Below are positions 8,190-12,869 of a stretch of 34,772 nt of DNA, piece by piece. The position numbers and the translations under genes were made by a program. The notes under the pieces were generated by a model, which saw only the letters and a list, made by a program, of their open reading frames with translations, searched no databases and was not told where the DNA came from. The DNA is from Armatimonadota bacterium (lineage in GTDB: Bacteria; Armatimonadota; UBA5829): NCBI GenBank assembly GCA_029907315.1, contig JARYME010000025.1, positions 1 to 34,772 on the forward strand, in the 5' to 3' direction. The first letter of the stretch is position 1; each line of letters begins with the position of its first letter.

Positions 8190-9932
8190 ATGGCGAAGAG
8201 AGGACGATCCAAGGAAGGACAGCCAGAGATGCCGACGGTCCGTGACGGCAACTCTATGCCCCTGTCACGATCTGACAGCAGCGAAATCACCTGCCGGCAA
8301 TGCGGTACTACCCAACCGGAACCAGATACATCGCAGCTGCAAAACTCTGAAGAAGCAGCCCTGCTCAAAACGATTTGGAACCTTACCCCGGATCTACTGG
8401 CGGTCAAGACCGTCCGGGGAGTTTATCAGACGATAAATCCCGCTTTCTGCGAGTGTTTCGGGTTCGACGAGCAAGAGGTTATTGGGCGAACAGACGCTGA
8501 TTTATTTCCCGGCAAAGACGGCGAAGTATTCCTGAGAACCGACCTTGACACCATCCGCCAAGGGGAACCGACATCGACCGAGGAAATTCGCCGCACTATA
8601 AAGGGACTGCGCCACTATCAGGTAATCAGAATCCCCTACTGCGACGCCCAGGGGACACCTCTCGGACTGCTCTTCTGTCTCAGAGACATCACCGAACTCA
8701 AACAGATGATAGCAAAGGCCGAACAAGCCTTTGAAGCCGTCAAGAAGCACGAGCAAGCTTTGCAGCAACTTATTGACTGTATGCCAGCCGGGATTATGCT
8801 GCTTGACTCAGAACTCAGGCTTCTTGCGTGGAACCGGAAATACCTGACTTACTTTGAACCCTCCGTCAAGTGGCGCGTTGGGACACGCATACAAGATGTG
8901 ATACCGCTGGCTGAAGAATCAGGTATGATGGAAAAGCTTCGTCGAGCCCTGAGTTCAGGCCGTCCAGTGCGGGTTAACGAGTTCAAGTATGAGGGACTGA
9001 GAAAGGGCACGACGTACTGGCGGGGAGTTGCCGTACCGATGGAGCTCACTCTGGAAAGCGGCTCGACGGCTGCGCTCGCCGTTATGGTTGTCGATGTAAC
9101 CCGCGAGGTTATGGCCCGCGAGAAATATGCCCAGGCTGCTGAATTGGCAAGGCGGCGGGAGGAAGAGCTCCTAGACTTATACGAGCGGGAGCACTCCGTA
9201 GCCGTTCAGCTTCAGAAGAGCTTCTTAATGCACGATGTCCCGGACATCCGCGGTTTCGAAATCGTTCGCCGCTATCAGGCGGCATCTGACGGCGCTTTGG
9301 TCGGCGGGGATTTCTACGACATGTTCCGCATTTCGGCACGCAAGTACGGAATCGTGATAGGCGACGTATCCGGCAGAGGGCTCAACTCTGCAATTTATAC
9401 TGCAATGACAAAGCACATGCTTAGGGCCTATGCGCTGGAGAACAGTTCACCGAACCTTGTGCTGGCACGCCTCAACGACGCGCTGACCTCTTGCACTCCG
9501 GAGGAGGTGTTCGTCACCCTGATATACGGAGTACTTGATTTTGACGAGGGCACGTTCACCTACTGCAACGGTGGACACGAAACGCCCATATACTACTCAC
9601 ACAGCACCTGCGAAGTTTGTTCTTTGGACCTGACAGGGCGCGCACTGGCACTGGCACCGGGGTGCGATTATGTGTGCAGAACAGTGTCGTTCGACCCGGG
9701 TGATGTATTGGTGCTTTACACGGACGGTATCTCAGACGCCGGAAAGGGCAGCAATAGGCTGGGGCGAGAATCACTGGTAGCGATAGTCGAGACCTGTTGT
9801 ACGCGCAGCGGGGAAGAGATTGCAAACGCGATAATGCAAGCCGCAGTGGAGTATGCCGGTGGGCGTCTTACCGACGATGCCGCTCTGCTGGTTATACGAC
9901 GCGTACCCCGGCGGCGAACACGCTCAAGGTGA
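8190..9932 (+). CDS. PAS-PAS-SpoIIE/RsbU-type protein phosphatase
   Basis: Seen: 580 aa. N-terminal tail with a CxxC (C35, C38); PAS domain 1 at ~58-170 ('IWNLTPDLLAVKT', 'GLLFCLRDITELKQMI'); short coiled coil; PAS domain 2 at ~192-305 ('LQQLIDCMPAGIMLLDSE', 'LAVMVVDVTREVM'); a charged coiled coil at ~305-345; then the PP2C-like SpoIIE domain with metal-binding aspartates in 'GGDFYD' (Asp374) and 'IGDVSGRG' (Asp392), then 'NGGHETPIYY' and 'VLYTDGISDA'. Known: such phosphatases dephosphorylate anti-sigma antagonists in partner-switching stress systems. No transmembrane segment, so a cytoplasmic sensor. No RsbV/RsbW partner is encoded beside it. ATG at 8190 with GGAGG ~12 nt upstream. Its stop overlaps the stop of the convergent fumarase beta gene by 9 bp. 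Confidence 0.9.
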   Translation: MAKRGRSKEGQPEMPTVRDGNSMPLSRSDSSEITCRQCGTTQPEPDTSQLQNSEEAALLKTIWNLTPDLLAVKTVRGVYQTINPAFCECFGFDEQEVIGRTDADLFPGKDGEVFLRTDLDTIRQGEPTSTEEIRRTIKGLRHYQVIRIPYCDAQGTPLGLLFCLRDITELKQMIAKAEQAFEAVKKHEQALQQLIDCMPAGIMLLDSELRLLAWNRKYLTYFEPSVKWRVGTRIQDVIPLAEESGMMEKLRRALSSGRPVRVNEFKYEGLRKGTTYWRGVAVPMELTLESGSTAALAVMVVDVTREVMAREKYAQAAELARRREEELLDLYEREHSVAVQLQKSFLMHDVPDIRGFEIVRRYQAASDGALVGGDFYDMFRISARKYGIVIGDVSGRGLNSAIYTAMTKHMLRAYALENSSPNLVLARLNDALTSCTPEEVFVTLIYGVLDFDEGTFTYCNGGHETPIYYSHSTCEVCSLDLTGRALALAPGCDYVCRTVSFDPGDVLVLYTDGISDAGKGSNRLGRESLVAIVETCCTRSGEEIANAIMQAAVEYAGGRLTDDAALLVIRRVPRRRTRSR

Positions 9933-10484
9933 ACCCAGACTATACCTAGAGCGGCTTTGCCGGTAAAAATCGTTGCCGAAACAGTCGTTTATTACTATTA
10001 GAGGAAAATCGACTACCTCGAGCTTGTGAATAGCCTCGCATCCCAGATCTTCGAACGCAACGACCTCACATGAGACGACACGCTTGGCAAGCAGCGCCCC
10101 CGCTCCACCAGTCGCTGCGAAATAAACCGCGCGGTGCCTTACGATGGCATCTATGACGTCAGTGCTTCTCTCGCCTTTGCCGATCATCCCCTTGATGCCT
10201 GCGTTCAACATCTCCACGGTGTAAACATCCATCCTTGAGGACGTGGTAGGCCCGAGCGAACCAATCACGCGACCCGGCGGAGCGGGCGTAGGACCCGCGT
10301 AGTACAACACCTGTCCAGTCAGATCGAAAGGCAGCTTATCTCCGTGACGTATCATCTCAACCAACCGAGCGTGTGCTGCGTCGCGAGCGGTGTATATCGT
10401 CCCCGACAGTAACACCCGATCGCCCGCAATGAGCCCGCAAACATCACGTTCGGTCAACGGAGCAGAGAGTTTCTTGACTTCCAA
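9924..10484 (-). CDS. class I fumarate hydratase, beta (C-terminal) subunit
   Basis: Small subunit of the [4Fe-4S] two-subunit hydro-lyase (fumarase, less likely tartrate dehydratase), interconverting fumarate and malate. Seen: 186 aa with 'DVCGLIAGDRVLLSGTIYTA', 'ARDAAHARLVEMI', 'YYAGPTPAPPGRVIGSLGPT', 'TTSSRMDVYT', 'MIGKGERS' and 'YFAATGGAGALLAK', all conserved in the fumarase C-terminal domain. Full length (~180 is usual). Start TTG at 10484, with a weak AGGT upstream; 17 nt after the alpha subunit stop, so co-transcribed. The last nine bases overlap the convergent phosphatase gene. Confidence 0.92.
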   Translation of the reverse strand: MEVKKLSAPLTERDVCGLIAGDRVLLSGTIYTARDAAHARLVEMIRHGDKLPFDLTGQVLYYAGPTPAPPGRVIGSLGPTTSSRMDVYTVEMLNAGIKGMIGKGERSTDVIDAIVRHRAVYFAATGGAGALLAKRVVSCEVVAFEDLGCEAIHKLEVVDFPLIVINDCFGNDFYRQSRSRYSLGSP

Positions 10485-10501: not shown

Positions 10502-11344
10502 TCAAAAAGTAAAACTTGCGTGTCTGGCTGCGTGGCACTGCAGCGTTACGGCAACAGGCAAGCTGGCAATATGACAAGGGAAAGACTCGACGTGAACTGC
10601 AAGCGCCGTAACTCGGCCGCCCAAACCTGCGGGACCAATACCAGTAGCATTGACGGCGTCGAGCAGGCGGCGTTCGAGTTCGGCATCCGGGGGAACGCAA
10701 CTGGCTTTGCCGACCTCGCGAAGTAGTGCTCTCTTCGAAAGTATCGCAGCCATCTCCATCGTGCCACCCAATCCTACGCCCACAATGATGGGCGGACAGG
10801 GATTCGAGCCGGCGTTTCGCACTGTTTCCACAACGAAGCGGAGCACGCCGTCGGCACCCTCAGAGGGTGTTAGCATCCTCACGGAACTCATATTCTCGCT
10901 TCCTCCGCCCTTTGGAGCAACTGTGACCGAAATGGTGTCTCCGGGAACCAGGCGGCAGTGAACGACGGCTGGCGTGTTGTCGCCCGTGTTGGTGCGTGCA
11001 AGGGGATGAGATACGACGGATTTACGAAGGTAGCCTTCTGTGTATCCCTGTCGGACGCCCTCGTTGACAGCCTCGTATAAACTGCCTCCAACAAGACGCA
11101 CGTCCTCGCCCATATCGACGAAAACGAGAGTCAGCCCAGTATCTTGGCAAATAGGAATGCCTTCTTCACGTGCGATGTGAGCATTCTCGATGAGCTGTTT
11201 AAGCACGTCGCGGCCGGAGTCAGATTCCTCACGCGCCAGGGCGTTTTCCAACGCATTCAGAACATCCTGCGGAAGCACCGTGCACGCCTCAATGCAGGCA
11301 TCCTTGATACGAGTCACTAGCTCGCTCGCCGATATTTGCCTCAT
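10502..11344 (-). CDS. class I fumarate hydratase, alpha (N-terminal) subunit
   Basis: Large subunit of the oxygen-sensitive iron-sulfur fumarase. Seen: 280 aa, the usual length for the alpha chain; iron-sulfur ligand cysteines in 'IPICQDTG' (Cys66), 'NPCPPIIVGVG' (Cys183) and 'QCHAARHA' (Cys270); substrate-site segments 'HPLARTNTGDNTPAVVH' and 'PKGGGSENMS'. Known: catalyses fumarate hydration in the TCA cycle; TtdA-type tartrate dehydratases are close relatives. ATG at 11344 lies 1 nt beyond the prepilin stop and has no clear ribosome binding site of its own, so translation is probably coupled to the prepilin frame. This is an odd pairing of a pilin-like and a metabolic gene. Confidence 0.93.
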   Translation of the reverse strand: MRQISASELVTRIKDACIEACTVLPQDVLNALENALAREESDSGRDVLKQLIENAHIAREEGIPICQDTGLTLVFVDMGEDVRLVGGSLYEAVNEGVRQGYTEGYLRKSVVSHPLARTNTGDNTPAVVHCRLVPGDTISVTVAPKGGGSENMSSVRMLTPSEGADGVLRFVVETVRNAGSNPCPPIIVGVGLGGTMEMAAILSKRALLREVGKASCVPPDAELERRLLDAVNATGIGPAGLGGRVTALAVHVESFPCHIASLPVAVTLQCHAARHASFTF

Positions 11345-11345
11345 G

Positions 11346-12086
11346 TCAGTTCACGTCTTTGCCCTGAACGCCGTTGCGCGTAAGGTTGATGTCTGGCAGT
11401 AGCCTGGGACGCTCAACCAGCGGACTTTCAGCCGGCAGTATTTCTTTAGTCGGCAAATAGCGCACCCGGCCGTCAGCGAACAGGTAGTTCCGAAAACCGC
11501 TCCACGGGTCATTGCCTGTTTCGGCAGGGTCGTCGTACCAACCGACATTGTTGTCGGCAGCATGTAGAGTCCAATACTCAGCCGCGAGGACTTTCTTTGA
11601 AGGATGCTTTACCATTGAGCTCGGAATACTCGAGCAAGGGAGCTTCGGGTTGGTCGAAGCAAACTTGACGCGGATGTAGTTCGGGTTTGCTATACGATTT
11701 ACCTGCTCAGGTGTCATGTAGAAACAGGCCGAATAGGCATATGACGTGCCAGCGTACACTCCAGGCGGTGTGGGATCAGCCGGACACGAAAGGATTTTGT
11801 TCTTGTCTTCGCTGCCGGACGCTACAACGTACTTACGCAGCGGCTCACGCCAATAGTAGCCTCCCCACAGGTATTGATTGTTTGTGTTGGGATAGTATCC
11901 CTCATAGTCCGCTAGATACGAATCGAAAGCACAAGCTATCTGACGGAGGTTGGACTGGCACTTTGAGCGCAAGCTGAGCTTTTTGGTCTCGTAATAGACA
12001 GGCATAAGGAATGCAAAAAGAACACTTATAAGGCTTACGGTCAAAAGAAGCTCGACCAGGCTGAAACCGCGGTCGTCAAACCTCAC
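11346..12086 (-). CDS. prepilin-like (type IV pilin/pseudopilin) protein
   Basis: Seen: 246 aa; very short leader 'RFDDRG|FSLVELLLTVSLI' with canonical Gly at -1 and Glu at +5, a hydrophobic helix to residue ~30, then 'CQSNLRQIACAFDSYLADYE' and near the C-terminus 'NYLFADGRVRYLP'. Same family as the gene at 7027-7845, but the two diverge strongly outside these motifs. Start GTG at 12086: the GTGA at 12083-12086 joins this start to the stop of the upstream DnaA-domain-like gene, a classic coupling overlap. It is followed 1 nt later by fumarase alpha. Confidence 0.87.
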   Translation of the reverse strand: MRFDDRGFSLVELLLTVSLISVLFAFLMPVYYETKKLSLRSKCQSNLRQIACAFDSYLADYEGYYPNTNNQYLWGGYYWREPLRKYVVASGSEDKNKILSCPADPTPPGVYAGTSYAYSACFYMTPEQVNRIANPNYIRVKFASTNPKLPCSSIPSSMVKHPSKKVLAAEYWTLHAADNNVGWYDDPAETGNDPWSGFRNYLFADGRVRYLPTKEILPAESPLVERPRLLPDINLTRNGVQGKDVN

Positions 12087-12718
12087 TCCAACTTGCCCTC
12101 TGAGCGTAGTTTGAAGAACTCATAAGCAAGAATCGCGCTTGGCACTTCCACAACAGTTGCCAACCTCTCGAAAACTCTTGAAAGAGCGCGCTTGTGCATC
12201 TCATCGGCTTCATGAGTGTAATTGAGGCGATTGACGGCTTCGTTGATGATCTTGAAGGCTTCCAGGATGTACAGTCCCTTGCTCTGCGCGAGCTGCCGAA
12301 GTGGAAGCGCAGCGTACCCGCGGGAGATTTTCTCTGCTACATCATCCCAAGCTTCCTCAATTTGGCGCTCTCTCTCGCGGAGCGTAGACATTGCAGCCCT
12401 TCGCTGCTCTGCCAACGACTGGATTTTCTTCCATTCCTCGTATGCCTCCAGCGTGGTCCCCTCTATGATCCTGAGGCGCACCTTCCTACCGATCACTTCG
12501 CTGAGGCACTGTTCAACAGTTGGCAAGTGCTGGGCACTACGGATGTGCCCTGCCATCGGCAAGTCTGCGCTTGAAAAACCGAGAACAAAATAGTCACCGT
12601 CGATCGTAATGCCAACGCCCAACTCTAGAGCACGATACAACGTCGGCGCTATCACTCGGTCCTTGACGCGTTCAGCCGCCTCCAACCATATTTGATGCGC
12701 ATTCAGCTTTTGCTGCAT
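12083..12718 (-). CDS. DnaA-domain-I-like protein without AAA+ or DNA-binding domain
   Basis: Not a family I can name with certainty. Seen: 211 aa from ATG 12718 (GGAGA 9 nt upstream; a longer frame to 12820 runs through a hairpin and is rejected). Residues ~5-90 have the layout of the DnaA N-terminal/KH-like domain: 'AHQIWLEAAERVKDRV', 'ITIDGDYFVLGF', then 'LPTVEQCLSEVIGRKVRLRI'. Residues ~95-145 are a charged coiled coil and the last ~65 are helical ('ALPLRQLAQSKGLYILEAFK'). There is no Walker A, and no helix-turn-helix signature of DnaA domain IV. Known: DnaA domain I mediates self-association and contacts with DnaB and DiaA. Inference: a protein-interaction module, maybe a replication or DnaA modulator. 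It starts the set with the prepilin and fumarase genes and follows the nuo hairpin. Confidence 0.66.
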   Translation of the reverse strand: MQQKLNAHQIWLEAAERVKDRVIAPTLYRALELGVGITIDGDYFVLGFSSADLPMAGHIRSAQHLPTVEQCLSEVIGRKVRLRIIEGTTLEAYEEWKKIQSLAEQRRAAMSTLRERERQIEEAWDDVAEKISRGYAALPLRQLAQSKGLYILEAFKIINEAVNRLNYTHEADEMHKRALSRVFERLATVVEVPSAILAYEFFKLRSEGKLE

Positions 12719-12750: not shown

Positions 12751-12828
12751 AAAACCGAAAGTGGAAAGTCGAAAGCCCGGTGGAGACAGAACCATCGTCC
12801 TCCGGCTTTCCACTCCCCACTTTCTTTC
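12751..12828 (-). terminator. long imperfect hairpin plus U-tract after nuoN
   Basis: Arms 12757-12787 and 12797-12828 pair over about 28 bp with a few mismatches, around a loop of about 9 nt; on the minus strand the stem is followed by TTTTT (12751-12755 region). It follows nuoN by ~40 nt and precedes the next ATG by 33 nt, so it looks like the nuo operon terminator or an attenuator for the following genes. The left arm also carries direct GAAAGT(G/C) repeats. Confidence 0.6.
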
Positions 12829-12869
12829 AGTTGGGATTATAGAACCACGACGGCACGTTGTCAACGCGG

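Follow-up and report, generated by a model that had tools for sequence, protein, structure and literature searches.

The KH fold is common to DnaA domain I, DnaX domain V and the N-terminal domain of DciA, and the first two of these are described as interacting with DnaB (PMC9912922). In E. coli DnaA domain I the contacts with DnaB and DiaA involve E21, W25 and F46, and dimerisation involves W6 (PMC5448010). Our analysis concerns a protein of this kind encoded in a 34,772-nucleotide stretch of Armatimonadota DNA (hereafter the window) and the family to which it belongs. The family resembles DnaX (tau) domain V (PF20964, DnaX_C) in its KH-like topology, and the alignment is nearly ungapped over residues 5–87, but here the domain stands alone at the N-terminus of a 211-aa protein that has no AAA+ part, forms its own clade and carries conserved motifs after the domain. 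With DnaA domain I (PF11638, DnaA_N) the family shares the fold (Z 11.8, 2.0 Å, 84 residues), a profile probability of 98% and the helix-1 Trp, whereas it has neither the AAA+ domain nor domain IV, its loop is ~3 residues longer, the DnaB/DiaA contacts are not kept and the clade is separate. The helicase loader DciA (DUF721), present in the same genomes, also has a KH-like fold (7ykm, Z 6.4; 8a3v, Z 6.9), but it is a separate gene, its profile similarity to the family is nil (0.8%) and the family protein gives no DUF721 match in Pfam. As for J-domain proteins (DnaJ, PF00226), an N-terminal J-domain occurs in one clade of the family, but not in the window protein or in most members.

A core gene of the Armatimonadota and its neighbours

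The reading frame window:12083-12718 (minus strand) consists of 211 codons plus TGA, starts with ATG at 12718 and has GGAGA 5' of this ATG. The features of the region are as follows.

12083..12718, minus strand: coding sequence of the family protein, 211 aa plus stop (TGA 12085-12083), with homologues in 266/291 genomes of the phylum
12458..12715, minus strand: KH-like domain, residues 2-87, assigned to the DnaA domain I / DnaX domain V superfamily (AlphaFold; VIA Z 11.8 to 4tps_D; hhalign 98%)
12311..12451, minus strand: predicted long helix, residues 90-136, starting past the conserved IIEGTT..DWE junction (AlphaFold and conservation)
12101..12289, minus strand: three predicted C-terminal helices, residues 144-206, with R181 invariant and R177 at 95% (AlphaFold and conservation; alone, no significant fold match)
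12083..12086, minus strand: GTGA, where the stop of the family gene overlaps the GTG start of the prepilin; across the class, 12 loci keep the two genes close, at -4 to +73 nt
11346..12086, minus strand: prepilin-like protein, a co-directional neighbour whose ortholog stays beside the family gene in the class (Pfam N_methyl 4.4e-5; adjacent copies are mutual best matches)
10502..11344, minus strand: fumarase alpha subunit, neighbour (PF05681, Fumerase, 5.3e-115)
9924..10484, minus strand: fumarase beta subunit, neighbour (PF05683, 1.2e-57)
12836..12864, minus strand: perfect sigma-70 consensus TTGACA-17-TATAAT upstream of the family gene (12/12 matches; a consensus match only)
12757..12824, minus strand: inverted repeat with 21-nt arms in the presumed 5' leader, predicted to form a stable RNA hairpin

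The gene is real, far beyond chance, because a profile of 39 members finds homologues in 266 of 291 Armatimonadota genomes, with identities from 86% down to ~20%; the original prediction had placed the frame correctly. A search with the single protein finds them in 54 of 61 genomes of the phylum. Among good-quality Armatimonadota genomes the 39-member profile detects the gene in 188 of 194 (~97%), nearly always as a single copy. The profile search detects none in the other ~3%, and the protein is therefore not indispensable everywhere. Good-quality genomes without a detectable copy include G016, G024, G052, G179 and G180, of which G179 and G180 are small (1.5 Mb). Conservation spans the full length of the protein, and a tree of 79 members groups largely by genome family and broadly follows taxonomy, as expected of a vertically inherited core gene. 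The family protein belongs to the core of the phylum; it is ancient and no recent copy.

Outside the phylum, a profile search of ~225 other good genomes, a sample of the other phyla and not all of them, returned no full-length relatives, and a contig scan with one sequence reached close relatives only. The family profile does match 16 places in 15 of these outside genomes, each time with the N-terminal domain alone. Most matches are the C-terminal part of DnaX (best E 2.4e-8): 13 lie at the C-terminus of frames of ~500–690 residues (12/13 with DnaX motifs), and three at the N-terminus of DnaA-sized frames. The window protein has no significant match in Pfam or NCBIfam, and the absence of AAA+ and domain IV from its 211 residues, claimed at the outset, is borne out. 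Weak matches in these databases (DUF3069, Anticodon_1, RseA, SecA2 and others, E 0.001–0.08) vary between members and were set aside. We found no paper on the family protein in the open-access literature searched.

At the window locus the gene lies between nuoN (upstream) and a prepilin–fumarase alpha–fumarase beta run. The GTGA coupling to the prepilin and the distance of 1 nt from the prepilin to fumarase alpha are both confirmed on the sequence, and Pfam confirms the N-methylation motif. The order nuoL-nuoM-nuoN-gene-prepilin-fumarase recurs in the bacterial family of the window. In many members of the class a prepilin with the motif CQSNL.QI directly follows the family gene, often with a 4-nt overlap, and the prepilins beside the family gene match one another best in 12 loci from families f1, f2, f4 and f5, all of one class (window:11346-12086, L073, L074, L077, L079, L082, L083, L084, L086, L094, L096, L097). 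This setting, which had been called unexpected, is indeed present in the window, but it is a local arrangement: the complex I/fumarase context is confined to the family of the window, the prepilin coupling is conserved no further than its class, and in the rest of the phylum the gene stands beside other genes. Neighbours in other families follow no pattern (sugar isomerases, xylose-isomerase-like proteins, metallo-beta-lactamase-fold proteins, RecO, SelB and others). Across the loci examined in the phylum no replication gene recurs consistently beside the family gene, and RecO, in family f9, is the only one seen at all. With no constant partner beyond the class-level prepilin, we rejected the neighbourhood as a clue to function. 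The orthologous prepilin pair, with its frequent 4-nt overlap, and the recurrent nuoLMN-to-fumarase order could be taken to mean that the protein is part of the adjacent pseudopilin or of a respiratory/fumarase function. However, unrelated neighbours outside the class and genome G003, where the prepilin is missing from its place and the family gene stays, make this barely credible.

The gap after nuoN is 151 nt here versus 11–52 nt in 9 of 10 relatives with nuoN in that place, and it holds the promoter and the hairpin. Three promoter-like sites were found in the region against 0.2 expected, and in this genome the TTGACA-17-TATAAT element probably serves the gene-prepilin-fumarase run as its own promoter. 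The leader repeat folds as RNA with -43 kcal/mol (z -3.7); a mobile repeat is ruled out by its single copy in the genome. At the other end of the run, a PAS-SpoIIE phosphatase gene (window:8190-9932, plus strand) runs towards fumarase beta from the opposite direction, and the two genes overlap at their ends by 9 nt.

Fold and kinship of the N-terminal domain

AlphaFold run on the family alignment (pLDDT 96) places helices at residues 2-21 and 25-33, strands at 35-40 and 43-48, helices at 50-60 and 65-76 and a strand at 81-86. Over residues 2-87 this predicted helix-helix-strand-strand-helix-helix-strand order is the topology of DnaA domain I. The original prediction had seen such a fold by eye in residues ~1–90, and its landmarks map to elements of the model: the Trp-led helix is helix 1, DGDYFVLGF is strand 2 and VEQCLSEVIGRKVRLRI is helix 4 with strand 3. 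The Trp of helix 1 (W11) is invariant in 39/39 members. VIA-align superimposes B. subtilis DnaA domain I (4tps_D) with Z 11.8 and 2.0 Å over all its 84 residues. In Foldseek against solved structures the top places go to the C-terminal domain of E. coli tau, DnaA domain I of B. subtilis and DciA, with 5fkv_E and 4tps among these matches and modest E-values of 0.003–0.09. Together with hhalign, these methods uphold the reading by eye.

After DnaA domain I the next chain in VIA is RbfA (2dyj_B, Z 8.0, 3.2 Å, 84 residues), and a second RbfA structure, 2kzf, gives Z 6.9 and 3.1 Å over 90 residues. KH folds can bind RNA, and an RNA- or ribosome-associated protein similar to RbfA might be considered on these grounds. 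We regard it as very unlikely, given the gap in Z to DnaA domain I, the profiles, which point to DnaX and DnaA, and the absence of RbfA from the Pfam matches listed for the window protein and the family members.

Profile comparison with 79 members gives hhalign probabilities of 97.6–98.8%, while 60 column shuffles of the family reach at most 4%. The value is 98.3% (E 2e-14) for DnaA domain I and 98.8% (E 1e-16) for DnaX domain V. For DnaA domain I from 30 Armatimonadota genomes it is 98.1%, and for DnaX C-terminal regions 96.9–98.6%, where the score against DnaX of other phyla is biased because that set was chosen for matching the family, whereas the Armatimonadota DnaX set was not so chosen and alone gives 97.6%. 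Single members of the family match Pfam DnaX_C (best 1.2e-4), DnaA_N-like_STI and DnaA_N. A profile probability >90% together with a KH-like fold had been set beforehand as support, and it stands at ~98% against both DnaA domain I and DnaX domain V. By significant profile similarity and the same modelled fold, the N-terminal domain belongs to the DnaA-I / DnaX-V superfamily.

The original prediction went further and took the protein for an orphan copy of DnaA domain I that could be a decoy or adaptor. Freed from DnaA, such a domain might regulate initiation or serve as a decoy by competing for DnaB or for other proteins that DnaA binds. The shared fold, the hhalign value of 98% and the correspondence of the dimerisation residue Trp6 of E. 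coli DnaA to the invariant W11 are consistent with it. Descent argues otherwise. In a tree of 69 domains, which rests on few columns (88) and is limited in finer placement, the family and DnaA fall into separate clades (100/98 and 99/94, respectively), and the DnaX rows lie between them. Against DnaX the family aligns without gaps through a loop that is shorter in DnaA, and in other phyla its profile favours DnaX over DnaA by 13 places to 3. Where E. coli DnaA has the helicase-contact residues E21, W25 and F46, the family has T/S, A (38/39) and L/M, so these contacts are not kept; the position matched to F46 rests on an alignment with a gap. On the separate clade, the DnaX-type loop and the unconserved helicase-contact residues, the family protein is a member of the superfamily but no copy of DnaA domain I. 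For an ancient core gene a decoy freed from DnaA is decidedly unlikely. The fold had been recognised rightly and the parent wrongly, and the gene is far wider and older than a local orphan.

The same genome encodes an intact DnaA that includes a domain I (C171, L060), DnaX as a separate frame of 591 aa with its own domain V (C131) and a true DciA as a separate gene (C171). A displaced part of one of these three is ruled out, since all are present here and in most relatives. The clamp-loader AAA+ domains I–III of DnaX are absent from the family protein. Two additional DnaX_C matches in frames of ~101 aa, one with a stop, were noticed in one genome (G031:C4:5332-5592 and G031:C41:804-1073); they are possibly free copies or fragments of DnaX domain V.

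The helical C-terminal domain and the J-domain clade

Behind the KH-like domain, AlphaFold predicts one long helix (90-136) followed by helices at 144-164, 173-190 and 194-206. The 'coiled coil' proposed earlier is thus a single long helix in the model with three helices after it, and the separate helical domain is recovered, with no significant match. Residues 88-211 predicted alone reach pLDDT 95 and pTM 0.79. Past the KH-like domain come the conserved motifs IIEGTT..DWE, RQLPQ and LARV.ER, and W124, R141, R177 and R181 are conserved at 92–100% (R181 invariant, R177 95%). In structure searches with the C-terminal domain the best Foldseek E is 0.4 and the best VIA Z is 7.6, below the meaningful level for helical bundles. 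The helical subdomain of DnaG (Pfam DnaB_bind) was considered as a relative (VIA Z 6.2–7.2, 2.3–2.4 Å over 63–68 residues) and set aside for want of profile support: comparison of DnaB_bind with the C-terminal helices gives 1–2%, rising to 40% only when cropped, and 0.2% in global mode. The resemblance to DnaG is an unproved lead.

In families f12, f22 and f35 a J-domain is fused to the N-terminus of the family protein (Pfam DnaJ 7e-13 to 7e-24); the window protein and most of the family have none. Two such members were examined in f12, three complete and one cut by a contig end in f22, and one in f35. The f12 and f22 members keep the HPD motif, which the f35 member lacks. All form one clade (88/89) in the 79-member tree, and a single gain therefore explains them. 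The fusion loci are as follows.

L102:7765-8697, J-domain fusion
L178:4871-5803, J-domain fusion
L179:3626-4519, J-domain fusion
L192:4779-5678, J-domain fusion
L190:5040-5957, J-domain fusion
L191:4993-5913, J-domain fusion

These fusions, with HPD in two of the three families, could point to a co-chaperone-type client adaptor, whose KH-like and helical parts would hold clients for Hsp70, with the J-domain built in (in the one clade) or acting in trans, and which would have no role in replication. The C-terminal part gives several matches to BAG domains in VIA, but at Z ~6 they are noise for helical bundles, and we rejected BAG as an assignment. As the J-domain is carried by 7 of 79 sampled members only and HPD is lost in f35, a co-chaperone of this type seems to us rather unlikely.

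A possible role in replication

The simplest reading is that the family protein is a docking adaptor of the replication machinery, an accessory protein of the phylum core, since DnaA domain I and DnaX domain V, which have the same fold, are described as DnaB binders and the whole phylum keeps the module in free form. We give this reading about an even chance. The KH-like domain would dock on a replication protein; judging by where the sister domains act, this could be DnaB helicase, the polymerase alpha subunit or DnaA. A second partner may bind to the helical part, in which the conserved arginines lie, and such two-ended docking would let the protein link or time two replication steps. In f12 and f22 the protein could, through its attached J-domain, summon DnaK to remodel the molecules it binds; the J-domain clade suggests recruitment of DnaK to the bound partner. 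The binding partners, and all steps beyond fold and homology, are our inference. It should be noted that several observations count against the docking adaptor: no replication gene is a constant neighbour, the family does not keep the DnaB contacts of E. coli DnaA, no relative of the C-terminal domain was identified and no copy is detectable in ~3% of good genomes.

More tentatively, the family may be an undescribed core replication component of the whole phylum, a further branch of the DnaA-I / DnaX-V / DciA type that exists as a free protein with its own helical effector domain and is wired to Hsp70 in one clade by a built-in J-domain. Helicase loading and replisome assembly are poorly known beyond E. 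coli and B. subtilis, and the known carriers of this domain, DnaA, DnaX and DciA, all act there. With a single copy in ~97% of good Armatimonadota genomes, the family protein is a concrete candidate for a replication factor that has so far been missed, and its J-domain fusion offers a direct way to probe the link between such complexes and DnaK.
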